A stretch of DNA of 40,476 nt from Pseudomonadota bacterium (lineage in GTDB: Bacteria; Pseudomonadota; Gammaproteobacteria; GCA-001735895): contig JADFJT010000012.1 of NCBI GenBank assembly GCA_022566015.1, forward strand, positions 1 to 40,476, written 5' to 3'. This document shows, piece after piece, positions 14,187 to 21,144 of the stretch. Position numbers and translations under genes: made by a program. Within the stretch, counting starts at the first letter, position 1. The number at the start of each line of letters is the position of its first letter. The notes under the pieces are model-generated. The model made no database searches. It worked only from the letters and a program-made list of their open reading frames with translations, and was not told where the DNA came from.

Positions 14187-15878
14187 ATGAGTGGCAACTT
14201 TCTGGGCAAGGCCCTGATTGTTGACGACGAGATAATCGATCGCCGCACCTTGAAAACTCTGCTGACCAAGTTGAACTACGAAACGGTAGAAGCGACCAAC
14301 GGGCAGGAGGCGATAGACCTGTTTAAACTCGAGCAACCCACTATCGTTTTCATGGACATCATGATGCCCAAAGTCGATGGTTACGAAGCGACCCGACAGA
14401 TAAAAGCCGCGGCGGGGAATCGCTTCATACCAGTTATTTTTCTAACCGCATTCACCGATCAGGATTCCCTGAACCAATGTATTGAGGCCGGAGGCGACGA
14501 TTTTCTTATCAAACCATATGACCCTTTTCATCTGCAAAGCAAAATTCAGACGATGCTACGAATTTCATTGCTGCACCAGAAATTACAGGGCATGTATAGC
14601 AGGATAAATCGCGAACAGGAGATTGCAGAGTCAGTTTTCACCAATGCGATTCAAATTTCTAATATTGAGAACCCAAATATTCAAAATTGTATTCGGCCAG
14701 CCAGTACCTTTAGTGGCGACATGATATTGTCAGCTTATGCCCCTTCGCGGGATTTATTCTATATGATTGGTGATTTTACTGGCCACGGTTTATCCGCCGC
14801 ACTGGGCGCCCTGCCAGTTTCAGAAGTTTTTCGGGCTATGGTCTCCAAGGGATTCGACGGGGAGGATATTCTTACCGCAATTAACAAAAAATTAAAATCG
14901 CTTTTACCCTCGGGTATGTTTTTCGGCACGCAACTGGTGGTTGTCAATCACGACCTTGAGCATGCGCGAATTTTCAATGCCGGGATGCCCGACATATTAA
15001 TTGTCGATGGCCTTAACAACACTATCAAGCATAGGATCAAATCGCGCGGTCTTCCACTGGGTATAGTCGAATCCATAGACCCCAAAGATATTGTCCGGTA
15101 TGTTCCCATAAAACCGAACGACCGCATTTTTATGTATAGCGATGGCCTGACCGAGGCCAGAAATCAGAACGACCACGAGTTTGGCGAGCAGCGCCTGGAG
15201 CAGGCTATCCTCGGTGCAGCTGATAATAATTCATTTAAGCAGATATTTACCGATCTGGATGCGTTTTGCGGCACGACCGCACTAGCCGATGACGTGACTC
15301 TGGTTGAAATTACCTGTGTTCATGGACTTTTTCCCAGGACCGATCCCGAGTACATTTCTCAGAGTAGAAAGGAGCGGCATGAAGATAGAGGAGACTGGAG
15401 CTTATCGATGAGATTTAACGGCGCTCGTTTGCGCGAAACCAATCCGATCCCCATTCTGATGAACCATATTGTGGAACTGGAAGGCGCCCATACCGAACGG
15501 CAAGCGTTGTTTACGATAATGACCGAACTGTATGTGAATGCGCTGGATCATGGTGTATTGGGCCTCAATTCGAGTCTGAAGTCTGACCCTTCGGGATTTG
15601 CCAGCTATTTCGAAGACCGTGAGAAAAAACTAAAGGCGCTCGACTCCGGGTATGTAAAATTCGATATAGCAATAAATAAATCCGACCGAGTACGCAATAT
15701 TACGATCCAGCTTGAAGATAGCGGCGATGGCTTCGATTATAAAAACTATAAAGCCTCTTCCGATGACCTCGCGTTGAGTGGCCGCGGAATACTGTTACTC
15801 GAAGAGTTATGCGACTCTCTCCAGTACTTTGGCAATGGAAATATCGCAAGAGCCATATTTAGCTGGAACACTGAATAA
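14187..15878 (+). CDS. Response regulator with PP2C phosphatase and anti-sigma-type kinase domains (HsbR/CrsR-like)
   Basis: 563 residues in three parts. Residues 1-125 are a receiver with acidic pocket D13/D14, phospho-acceptor D57 and K109. Residues ~165-380 are a SpoIIE/PP2C phosphatase with metal ligands in SGDM (D178), GDFTGHG (D196) and MYSDGLTEA. From ~415 to the end is a GHKL ATPase of the anti-sigma kinase type: N-box ELYVNALDHG, G1 EDSGDGFD, and GRGILLLEELCD. This architecture matches P. aeruginosa HsbR and Shewanella CrsR, which phosphorylate and dephosphorylate a STAS-domain antagonist to control a sigma or anti-sigma factor. No STAS protein gene or cognate histidine kinase lies beside it. 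The start is ATG with no clear ribosome binding site. Confidence 0.9.
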   Translation: MSGNFLGKALIVDDEIIDRRTLKTLLTKLNYETVEATNGQEAIDLFKLEQPTIVFMDIMMPKVDGYEATRQIKAAAGNRFIPVIFLTAFTDQDSLNQCIEAGGDDFLIKPYDPFHLQSKIQTMLRISLLHQKLQGMYSRINREQEIAESVFTNAIQISNIENPNIQNCIRPASTFSGDMILSAYAPSRDLFYMIGDFTGHGLSAALGALPVSEVFRAMVSKGFDGEDILTAINKKLKSLLPSGMFFGTQLVVVNHDLEHARIFNAGMPDILIVDGLNNTIKHRIKSRGLPLGIVESIDPKDIVRYVPIKPNDRIFMYSDGLTEARNQNDHEFGEQRLEQAILGAADNNSFKQIFTDLDAFCGTTALADDVTLVEITCVHGLFPRTDPEYISQSRKERHEDRGDWSLSMRFNGARLRETNPIPILMNHIVELEGAHTERQALFTIMTELYVNALDHGVLGLNSSLKSDPSGFASYFEDREKKLKALDSGYVKFDIAINKSDRVRNITIQLEDSGDGFDYKNYKASSDDLALSGRGILLLEELCDSLQYFGNGNIARAIFSWNTE

Positions 15879-17448: not shown

Positions 17449-18039
17449 GTGGCGAAGTTATTTCATCAAACTCAATTTCTAATCAGCGCTTTCGAACTCT
17501 CGCAGTTGCCCCCCGATCAGGGATTCGAGGTTGCTTTTGCCGGCCGCTCTAACGCCGGCAAGTCTACCGCGATCAATTGCCTGACACGACAGCATAAATT
17601 GTGCAAGACAAGCAAAACGCCGGGGCGTACGCAGCTAATCAATTTCTTTTCTCTGGACGAAAAGCGCAAGCTGGTCGATTTGCCTGGCTACGGATACGCC
17701 AGGGTATCGAAAAATTTGCGCAACCACTGGGATCAGGTACTGTCGACATTTTTGTTGGAGCGTGTCGCATTGCAAGGTCTTGTAATCGTGGTCGACATAC
17801 GTCGTGGCATCACCGAACTTGACCAGGCACTTATCGATATGGTCGGATCCAGTGTCGCGTTGCACATACTGTTGACAAAATCAGACAAACTCTCTCGTTC
17901 TGCTACCAAAAGTGCGATAAAGCAGGCACAGGAGCATCTGGGGAAGGGCGATCACAGTGTTTCCAGCCTGTCTGCATCAAGCCTGGAAGGACTCGATCAA
18001 CTGGAACGAAAGTGCGCACAATGGCTCGATTTTAGCTGA
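17449..18039 (+). CDS. engB: Ribosome-biogenesis GTPase EngB (YihA/YsxC)
   Basis: 196 residues from a GTG start. The G1 motif is GRSNAGKST (32-40), followed by the family-typical TSKTPGRTQLINFF, the G3 motif DLPGYGYA (77-84) and the G4 motif TKSD (143-146). EngB is a small TRAFAC GTPase needed for late assembly of the large ribosomal subunit. The gene converges with polA across about 400 nt holding a candidate small RNA, the same arrangement as yihA-spf-polA in E. coli. The minus-strand terminator hairpin lies just 15 nt beyond its stop codon. Confidence 0.95.
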   Translation: MAKLFHQTQFLISAFELSQLPPDQGFEVAFAGRSNAGKSTAINCLTRQHKLCKTSKTPGRTQLINFFSLDEKRKLVDLPGYGYARVSKNLRNHWDQVLSTFLLERVALQGLVIVVDIRRGITELDQALIDMVGSSVALHILLTKSDKLSRSATKSAIKQAQEHLGKGDHSVSSLSASSLEGLDQLERKCAQWLDFS

Positions 18040-18053
18040 TATCCTTTGCATAA

Positions 18054-18200
18054 TTAAAAAACCCTGGCAGTAAACTACCAGGGCTAAACGGTTAACCCGG
18101 ATGGGGTATCCGGATCATCGTCCGCTCATAGGAGGGAGAACGGACATTGCGCTGGGCTATAGCGCAAAATTTAGACTTTCCACCCGTGGGAAAGTTCCTT
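18054..18200 (-). ncRNA. Candidate small RNA with four C-rich-loop hairpins (Spot 42/ErsA position)
   Basis: On the minus strand a TATGAT box (18207-18202) would start RNA near 18200-18195. Four hairpins follow: ACUUUCC/GGAAAGU (18195-18175, loop CACGGGU); UUGCGCU/AGCGCAA (18167-18147, loop AUAGCCC); GUCCGUUC/GAGCGGAC (18145-18120, one wobble pair, loop UCCCUCCUAU); and CCGGAU/AUCCGG (18113-18097, loop ACCCC). A G+C-rich hairpin plus U-run closes it. Every loop holds CCC or is C-rich apart from the first, where a C precedes ACGGG; the third is complementary to a Shine-Dalgarno sequence. The location, between polA and a convergent engB and on the polA strand, is that of Spot 42 (spf) in enterics, ErsA in Pseudomonas, and, as I recall, sX13 beside polA in Xanthomonas. 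C-rich loops are a known feature of sX13. The -35 is not clear, and expression is inferred. Confidence 0.72.
18056..18083 (-). terminator. Intrinsic terminator of the candidate small RNA
   Basis: Minus-strand CCCTGG (18083-18078) pairs with CCAGGG (18067-18062), extended by two pairs beyond one mismatch, and is followed directly by TTTTTT (18061-18056) and AATTA. This is a textbook rho-independent terminator. It points away from polA and toward the end of engB, so it would end the small RNA or any polA read-through. Confidence 0.8.
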
Positions 18201-18207
18201 CATCATA

Positions 18208-18441: not shown

Positions 18442-21144
18442 TTAATGCGCTTCGTGCCAGTTTTTTCCCACACCAGCGTCGACTTCAAGCGCCACAGATA
18501 GTGTGGCGGCTTGCTTCATCAACCGTACCACCGTCTTTCGTGTCCGCTCGACATCGACCTCGGCTACTTCAAAAACGAGTTCGTCGTGCACTTGCATAAT
18601 CATTCTTGTCTGGTCTCCATCATCGATCAACCATCGGTGTACATCGATCATCGCGCGCTTGATAATATCTGCTGCTGTTCCCTGCATCGGAGCATTTATC
18701 GCAGTACGTTCGGCATATTGACGTTGCACGGCATTACGCGCGTTAATATCGGGCAAATACAGGCGACGGCCAAAAACGGTCTCTACATATCCCTGGTCGC
18801 GCGCCCGCTCTTTGGTTTCTTCCATGTAGCGACGAACGCCGGGGTAACGTTTGAAATAGGTATCGACGTATAGCTGCGCTTCTTTTCTACTGATATTCAA
18901 TTGCTTGCCGAGCCCAAATGCAGACATACCGTAGATCAGGCCAAAGTTAATTGCCTTCGCCGCACGGCGTTGGTCGTCACTCACCTGATCCACTGACTCC
19001 CCAAATACTTCCGCTGCGGTGGCACGATGGACATCCTGCCGCAGTTCAAATGCCCTGAGTAAATTTTCGTCTTTAGACAGGTGTGCCATGATGCGTAATT
19101 CGATTTGCGAATAGTCCAATGCCAGGATCCGATTACCGGCATCGGCGACAAAGGCTTCACGGATGCGCCTTCCCTGGGCTGTTCGGATTGGAATATTCTG
19201 CAAATTGGGGCTGGTTGAAGAAAGACGTCCGGTCGATGCGACCGCTTGCTGATACGAGGTGTGTACCCGCCCGGTACGCAAGTCGATTTCCTGCGGTAAT
19301 TTATCGATATAAGTCGTTTTCAGCTTGTTGAGTCCGCGATGTTCGAGAATCAGAGCCGGAATATCATAATTGTGCGCCAGTTCCTCAAGCACATCTTCGG
19401 CCGTCGATGGTTGCCCCCTGGGTGTTTTTCTGAGTACCGGTAATTCGAGCTTATCGTACAATATCGCCTGGATTTGCTTGGGCGAACTCAGATTGAAAAC
19501 CTCACCCGTTTTTGCATATATATCAGTTTCTATCTGGCCGAGCTGACGATCGACTTCTACTGCCTGTTTTTGCAAAAGCCCCTGGTCAACCAGCACACCA
19601 TTTTGTTCGACCTTAAGCAATACTTCGACCAATGGCATTTCTATTTCGAGATAGACATCGTTGAGCCGACGCTCGGGCTGTAATAACAGGCTCAAATGCT
19701 GGTGCAACTGTAAGGTGATATCTGCATCTTCTGCCGCGTATTCGGTTGCCTGGCCAATCTCTACCTGATCAAAAATAATTTGTTTCGCGCCCTTCCCGGC
19801 AATATCTTCGAAATGGATGGTGTCGCGATTGAGGTAATACTTTGCCAGATCGTCCATGTTATGCCGACTGGCAGTCGAATTGAGTACATACGACTGCAAC
19901 ATCGTATCGTGCGCTATGCCCTGCATATAAATACCCTCGCCGATAAATATATGGCAGTCGTATTTGATGTTTTGACCGATCTTGCCAATCGCTGGATTTT
20001 CCAGAATTGGCTTGAGGCGCGCGAGAACCTGTTCTTTTTCGAGTTGTCTGGGAACACCGGAATAACTATGTGCGAGCGGAATATAACAGGCATTCCCCGC
20101 TTCTACACAGAGTGAAATACCCACCAGTTTGGCGAGCATGTAATCGACGCTGGTGGTTTCGGTATCGATTGCAAACTGAGAGGCATTTTGCAGTTTATCC
20201 AACCAGTGTTGTAATCTCTCTTCACTAACAACACACTCGTATTCTACTTTTGGGGCGTCGGCGACTGCCTGGACTGGGACAGATACGTTTGAATCGAGTG
20301 CCTCGTACCAGCGGTTAAATCCAAATTGCTGATAGTAGGCCGCCAACGCTCCCGTATCGGCCTCGCCCTGCACCAGATCTTCGATTTCGAAGCCCGTATC
20401 ACAGTCGAGCTTGATCGTCGCGAGCCGGTAAGACATCGGTAAAAACCCGAGGGATTCCCGTAAATTCTCGCCAACTTTCCCCTTAATTTCTTCGGCCTTA
20501 TCCATGACTCCCTGCATGCTGCCGTATTGCGCCAGCCATTTGCTTGCAGTTTTAGGGCCGACTTTCGGCACACCCGGAATATTGTCAGAAACGTCACCCA
20601 TCAAGGCAAGGTAATCGATAATCTGATTCGGTTTAACCTGAAATTTTTCAGGCACTGTCGCTTCGGTCAGAACCTGATTATTCATCGTGTTGATGAGGCG
20701 CACGTTTTCATTAACCAGTTGCGCCATATCCTTGTCGCCAGTCGATATCAATACGCTATACCCTTTACGAGTTGCTTCGACACTGAGCGTACCGATAACA
20801 TCATCCGCCTCTACACCTTCGATCACGACTAAGGGTAAACCCTGTGCTTTTATGATTTGATGTAGTGGTTCAATTTGCACACGCAAGTCATCCGGCATCG
20901 GTGGCCTGTTGGCCTTGTACTCGGGATAAATATCATTGCGGAAGGTTTTACCCTTGGCGTCGAACACGACCGCGATATAATCCGGTTGTTCGTCCGTAAT
21001 CAGCTTACGCAGCATATTCAATACGCCATAGATTGCACCTGTCGGTTCGCCGTTATGGGTTAAGGGCGGCAAACCATGGTAGGCTCTGAATAGATAAGAG
21101 CTTCCGTCTATTAATACCAGTTCTTTTTGATTCTTTTCAGTCAT
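18442..21144 (-). CDS. polA: DNA polymerase I
   Basis: 900 residues with all three Pol I modules. The N-terminal 5' nuclease (~1-290) shows LIDGSSYLFRAYH and EGVEADDVIGTL. The 3'-5' proofreading exonuclease (~300-490) keeps acidic AIDTETTSVD, KIGQNIKYD and YAAEDA motifs, so it looks active. The family A polymerase domain has the YSQIELRI motif A, the RRAAKAINFGLIYGMS O-helix and QVHDELVF motif C. Pol I fills gaps and removes primers and acts in excision repair. The chosen ATG has only a poor ribosome binding site. Upstream is a hairpin-rich repeat region; downstream is a small-RNA candidate on the same strand. Confidence 0.97.
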   Translation of the reverse strand: MTEKNQKELVLIDGSSYLFRAYHGLPPLTHNGEPTGAIYGVLNMLRKLITDEQPDYIAVVFDAKGKTFRNDIYPEYKANRPPMPDDLRVQIEPLHQIIKAQGLPLVVIEGVEADDVIGTLSVEATRKGYSVLISTGDKDMAQLVNENVRLINTMNNQVLTEATVPEKFQVKPNQIIDYLALMGDVSDNIPGVPKVGPKTASKWLAQYGSMQGVMDKAEEIKGKVGENLRESLGFLPMSYRLATIKLDCDTGFEIEDLVQGEADTGALAAYYQQFGFNRWYEALDSNVSVPVQAVADAPKVEYECVVSEERLQHWLDKLQNASQFAIDTETTSVDYMLAKLVGISLCVEAGNACYIPLAHSYSGVPRQLEKEQVLARLKPILENPAIGKIGQNIKYDCHIFIGEGIYMQGIAHDTMLQSYVLNSTASRHNMDDLAKYYLNRDTIHFEDIAGKGAKQIIFDQVEIGQATEYAAEDADITLQLHQHLSLLLQPERRLNDVYLEIEMPLVEVLLKVEQNGVLVDQGLLQKQAVEVDRQLGQIETDIYAKTGEVFNLSSPKQIQAILYDKLELPVLRKTPRGQPSTAEDVLEELAHNYDIPALILEHRGLNKLKTTYIDKLPQEIDLRTGRVHTSYQQAVASTGRLSSTSPNLQNIPIRTAQGRRIREAFVADAGNRILALDYSQIELRIMAHLSKDENLLRAFELRQDVHRATAAEVFGESVDQVSDDQRRAAKAINFGLIYGMSAFGLGKQLNISRKEAQLYVDTYFKRYPGVRRYMEETKERARDQGYVETVFGRRLYLPDINARNAVQRQYAERTAINAPMQGTAADIIKRAMIDVHRWLIDDGDQTRMIMQVHDELVFEVAEVDVERTRKTVVRLMKQAATLSVALEVDAGVGKNWHEAH

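Follow-up and report, generated by a model that had tools for sequence, protein, structure and literature searches.

The polA–engB locus

The window (the whole stretch of DNA analysed, 40,476 nucleotides) belongs to a marine gammaproteobacterium and contains a real small RNA (sRNA) gene beside polA. The gene lies in the gap between polA and engB, on the polA strand, where the original prediction had placed it. It is matched by two covariance models: R1, built from the order of the window only, and R2, built from 71 matches. The features of the locus are the following:

17449–18039, plus strand: engB (YihA/YsxC GTPase), convergent with the RNA and not overlapping it
18055–18167, minus strand: predicted small RNA of about 111 nt, from the R1 and R2 matches and the z-score of the fold
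18056–18085, minus strand: intrinsic terminator, with an 11-bp stem (18085–18075 with 18070–18060) and a T-run (18061–18056, U6)
18093–18117, minus strand: hairpin H3, stem UGAUCCGGAU/AUCCGGGUUA, loop ACCCC (18107–18103)
18120–18145, minus strand: hairpin H2, stem GUCCGUUC/GAGCGGAC, loop UCCCUCCUAU (18137–18128)
18147–18167, minus strand: hairpin H1, stem UUGCGCU/AGCGCAA, loop AUAGCCC (18160–18154)
18171–18198, minus strand: RpoE/AlgU-type promoter, with a -35 box GGAACTT (18198–18192), a 15-nt spacer and a -10 box GTCTAA (18176–18171)
18442–21144, minus strand: polA (DNA polymerase I), the same-strand upstream neighbour of the RNA

Judged from its distance to the -10 box, the RNA should start at about 18168–18163, and it ends with the U-run. 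The window sequence, which is itself part of R1, matches that model from 18055 to 18170 with 129.7 bits (E = 5e-33) and scores 104.2 bits with R2. H1 and H2 are separated by a single base in the fold. The three C-rich loops and the intrinsic terminator are present as originally described, and the loop of H2 is complementary to Shine-Dalgarno sequences, which supports its predicted ability to pair with G-rich ribosome-binding sites. A short protein was considered as the product and rejected: the RNA contains no open reading frame of 20 or more amino acids on its strand, and a 54-codon frame (18321–18157) shares only its first bases. Homologues of polA and engB flank most members of the RNA family. 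Elsewhere in the window, a single protein (14187–15878, plus strand) combines a receiver domain of the response-regulator type with a SpoIIE-type phosphatase and a carboxy-terminal HATPase domain.

A sigma-E-type promoter

The sequence GGAACTT-N15-GTCTAA upstream of the RNA has the textbook pattern of an RpoE/AlgU promoter. In the window this region (about 18198–18173) also folds into a hairpin, which had been counted as the first of four in the RNA. A similar stem is present in only three of the relatives (L002, L004 and L007), while all 29 relatives that are readable there keep just GAAC and GTC at fixed spacing; the sequence of the spacer is free and its length is identical in 28 of the 29. 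The 5'-most hairpin is therefore rejected as RNA structure. Three strong hairpins stand, the remaining one is the promoter, and the transcript would consequently start about 40 nt downstream of the start first proposed. The -10-like TATGAT that had been read as the promoter does occur, at about 18205–18200 on the minus strand, but it is not conserved in the relatives; it is rejected in that role and is probably irrelevant.

Both elements expected of an sRNA of the sigma-E regulon are found, namely a promoter resembling GGAACTT-N15-17-(G)TCTAA and an RpoE encoded in the genome (TIGR02939, 321.9 bits). The same promoter motif, GAACTTTTTAATATATAATCGGTCATT, is located upstream of the genome's own rpoE. 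When the strict pattern GGAACTT-N14-17-TCTNA is searched for in the whole assembly, it is found at four places, the promoter of the RNA among them. Across the class (defined below), the motif precedes 53 of 69 copies of the RNA, against 0.3 in shuffles, and lies at -32 to -28 in nearly all cases; for RNA copies outside the training of the model the count is 29 of 45, against 0.19 in shuffles. The box is absent at family members L096–L099, L101 and L106; regulation may have shifted in these lineages. On these sequence grounds, transcription of the RNA appears to be activated by RpoE, the sigma factor of envelope stress.

Fold and covariation

The 154-nt stretch originally singled out folds at -61.8 kcal/mol with a z-score of -5.8. 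The predicted transcript (18167–18055) folds at -52.5 kcal/mol with a z-score of -7.55, and none of 200 shuffled sequences does as well. A DNA search shows the RNA to be present in 30 of 57 relatives, and in their alignment the loops are near-invariant and the stems change. Among 22 relatives, 10 of the 30 base pairs have changes on both sides, a number reached by none of 500 shuffles; when the pairings are slid out of register, only 26–46% remain paired. Class-wide, with 44 distinct sequences whose alignment was fitted to a covariance model and is hence biased toward structure, 94.9% of the cells are paired (67.1% when shuffled), 356 cells show double changes (92.5 when shuffled) and 29 of the 30 pairs covary.

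Distribution in the class

The class is taken here as the Gammaproteobacteria in the GTDB sense, betas included, and 274 of its genomes were sampled. With R1, the RNA is recovered from 37 of the 41 genomes in the order. In the class, the same model matches 52 of the 274 genomes at E ≤ 0.05, and about 30 of these matches are full-length, with E below 1e-6. Most of these class matches are flanked by polA, engB and cytochrome c4. R2 has matches in 154 of the 274 genomes. This model contains no information on neighbouring genes or on the promoter, and 31 of the 36 loci outside its training, some of which come from families represented in the training, adjoin engB, polA or cytochrome c4. At E ≤ 0.001, a phylum-wide search of 299 genomes gives matches in 19, of which 13 belong to the Gammaproteobacteria. 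By sequence, then, the family extends over much of the class, and the part of the original prediction that described it as lineage-specific has to be given up.

In 45 class-wide copies, the H2 loop contains CUCC in 35 and CCUCC in 28, and the H3 loop contains CCCC in 40. The H1 loop is conserved in the family of the window and drifts class-wide (AGCCC in 9 of the 45). Conservation of the H2 and H3 loop letters and of the promoter indicates that the two C-rich loops and the promoter are what selection has held.

Tandem arrays of the sRNA are present in three genomes: five copies in G302 (contig C3, locus L171, 2501–3242), four in G210 (C33, L190, 2151–2904) and two in G190 (C7, L192, 2501–2793). 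Most of these copies have a GAAC(T) promoter-like box of their own. Weaker second copies are located in three genomes of the family of the window (L093 in G057:C138, L094 in G034:C178 and L095 in G027:C161); the first of these has a further polA fragment as its neighbour and may represent either a divergent locus or contaminating DNA. In genome G171, a c-di-GMP-I riboswitch is located between the sRNA and polA (L100, 2036–2120).

Cross-matching with Rfam families

When the window is searched with Rfam 15, nothing scores above its cut-off. The best sub-threshold match is to anti-hemB (RF02837), with 26.5 bits (E = 4e-4 for 551 bases), short of the gathering cut-off of 49.5 bits. At E ≤ 10 the sX13 model (cut-off 50 bits) matches nothing in the window, nor does it match anywhere in the genome, and the window is not among the matches of the ErsA/Pseudomon-1 model (RF01719, cut-off 50 bits) at E ≤ 10. 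The search with the Spot 42, ErsA and sX13 models, which had been suggested as a check, therefore leaves the window below each cut-off. As it lies below every Rfam cut-off, the RNA is filed as an unlabelled branch, neither "an ErsA" nor "an sX13".

The anti-hemB, sX13 and ErsA models do match other members of the family, in most cases with scores below their cut-offs. That of anti-hemB passes its cut-off in 11 of 258 class genomes, and does so at polA loci that are also found by R1 (L096, L099 and L100). Its strongest match (in G147) is about 1.5 kb from a hemB-like gene, does not adjoin polA and lacks a sigma-E box. At E ≤ 0.01 the anti-hemB search also returns weak background, from E. coli and from distant genomes, and evidence was therefore drawn only from matches that are strong or syntenic. 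The sX13 model scores above its cut-off in two genomes, beside polA, and below it on family members in G210 (48.3 bits), G122, G177 and G273, at the coordinates given by R1 or R2; conversely, R2 recovers both sX13 genes, with 31.9 and 25.4 bits. In Pseudomonas-type genomes, the ErsA loci score 127–134 bits with RF01719, and the polA–engB gap contains a sigma-E box of the same form as that of the window. In 55 kb searched with R2, these loci rank as the top three, yet with weak scores (19–24 bits). Genome G201 was rejected for this comparison, as its engB does not adjoin polA, and other genomes were used. Single copies in the G210 array match the sX13, anti-hemB, ErsA and ar14 models with E no higher than 7e-4. 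Weak matches to the alphaproteobacterial Atu_C7/ar14 are also present on sX13 and family members (L203 1502–1630, L204 1502–1604 and L207 1515–1618) and hint at alphaproteobacterial branches.

From these sequence matches, a chain of homology is taken to join the family of the window RNA to anti-hemB and sX13, and homology to ErsA is probable; the originally suggested kinship with ErsA and sX13 survives in this form. The alternative is an sRNA confined to one lineage that came to have its slot and C-rich loops in common with ErsA and sX13 by convergence. The failure of the window RNA to pass any Rfam cut-off, the weak ErsA matches to R2 and the report of sX13 solely from Xanthomonadaceae (PMC3771888) are in line with it. 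However, R1, although built from one order, matches the full length of RNAs from many other families; most of these adjoin polA or engB, they have the same promoter, and the anti-hemB and sX13 models match the same places. Convergence is therefore considered unlikely, and common descent is preferred.

Predicted function and targets

Four results come from computation here: a structured RNA, a promoter that is conserved, synteny, and models that match across families. Taken together, they make it likely, in our judgement, that the locus is a gene for a trans-acting regulatory sRNA of about 111 nt, with an RpoE (sigma-E)-type promoter in the polA–engB gap, whose CCUCC and CCCC loops pair with G-rich initiation regions, and which belongs to a family found across much of the Gammaproteobacteria with anti-hemB, sX13 and probably ErsA as branches. 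For the window RNA itself we infer expression, control by RpoE, a pairing mechanism and targets along the following lines. Upon envelope stress, RpoE would transcribe the RNA. The CCUCC loop of H2 and the CCCC loop of H3 would pair with G-rich translation initiation regions and mask the Shine-Dalgarno sequence, so that ribosomes could not enter a group of mRNAs, plausibly those of envelope genes. By analogy and from the anatomy of the RNA, repression of envelope-related or other mRNAs via H2 and H3 under envelope stress is the most likely function.

Genome-wide, only one ATG is preceded by an exact 8-nt match to the complement of the H2 loop, with no excess over a control with the reversed pattern; pairing is thus probably short or imperfect, or the targets are few. 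In a scan of duplex energies over about 0.75 Mb, a quarter of the genome, H2 pairing is favoured two-fold at start regions, a figure confounded by start calls that are weighted by Shine-Dalgarno sequences. Weak candidate targets are a MATE transporter, with UAGGAGGGG before the AUG, and a PilQ-like secretin.

Instead of pairing with specific mRNAs, the C-rich hairpins might chiefly bind a protein or the ribosome and serve as a sponge or as a mimic of the anti-Shine-Dalgarno sequence. The resemblance of the H2 loop to the 16S anti-Shine-Dalgarno sequence and the scarcity of exact target matches would fit such a role. Sponges of the CsrA/RsmA type need GGA, however, and the loops are C-rich and without it; moreover, sX13, with similar loops, acts on mRNAs through them (PMC3771888). 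We regard this role as improbable, a little more so than convergence, and favour pairing with mRNAs.

The Spot 42 model (RF00021) gives the window only 14.9 bits (E = 3.7, cut-off 80), and membership of that family, as distinct from a shared deep ancestor, is rejected. In E. coli, spf (Spot 42) occupies the same slot beside polA; with such a score, an orthologue of Spot 42 at this locus is highly implausible. The sX13 paper likewise remarks on the locus common to sX13 and Spot 42 (PMC3771888). Equally implausible is that there is no gene and that the hairpins are mere terminators in a polA attenuator or a processed polA 3' end: the RNA does lie downstream of polA on the same strand, but a conserved promoter of its own precedes it, with a spacer free to vary, its loop letters are conserved, and the tandem copies in G302 and G210 each have a promoter-like box.

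Comparison with known systems

Anti-hemB, from Burkholderia, is like the window RNA in having an H2-type hairpin with a CUCC-rich (CCUCCC) loop followed by a GC-rich terminator; its Rfam model is 81 nt long. The sX13 RNA (RF02232; PMC12189769) adjoins polA and has three stem-loops, whose C-rich loops act on G-rich mRNA motifs; it represses mRNAs without a need for Hfq (PMC3771888). The window RNA has the same arrangement: its gene follows polA, and its three stem-loops end in C-rich loops. The sX13 loci lack a GAACTT box, while the window RNA has a sigma-E-type promoter. ErsA is a post-transcriptional regulator that depends on sigma-22 (AlgU) (PMC5819304, PMC8575079), and between its first two stem-loops there is a U-rich unstructured domain (PMC8575079), which is absent from the window RNA. 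The two have in common the position between polA and engB, a sigma-22/sigma-E promoter (by motif and synteny) and C-rich loops.

We lean towards a single origin of these RNAs: an ancestral sRNA under sigma-E control, with CCUCC and CCCC loops, would have occupied the polA–engB gap in the ancestor of this class, betas included, and have given rise to ErsA, sX13, anti-hemB and the window RNA; ar14 and Atu_C7 of the alphaproteobacteria may also descend from it. The sX13 paper asked whether the polA locus elsewhere also encodes sRNAs that act like sX13 (PMC3771888). The family described here offers a testable answer: yes, in a large share of the Gammaproteobacteria, and usually behind a sigma-E-type promoter. 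If this is true, a promoter and a predicted mode of action can be assigned to a gene that is unannotated in well over 100 of the sampled genomes. A literature search, which left subscription journals largely outside its reach, returned no paper that names ErsA and sX13 together. The pieces were known, though not as parts of one family; on this reading, work on ErsA (biofilm, anaerobiosis), on sX13 (type IV pili, virulence) and on anti-hemB, previously filed as unrelated lineage-specific RNAs, would concern one conserved envelope-stress regulator.
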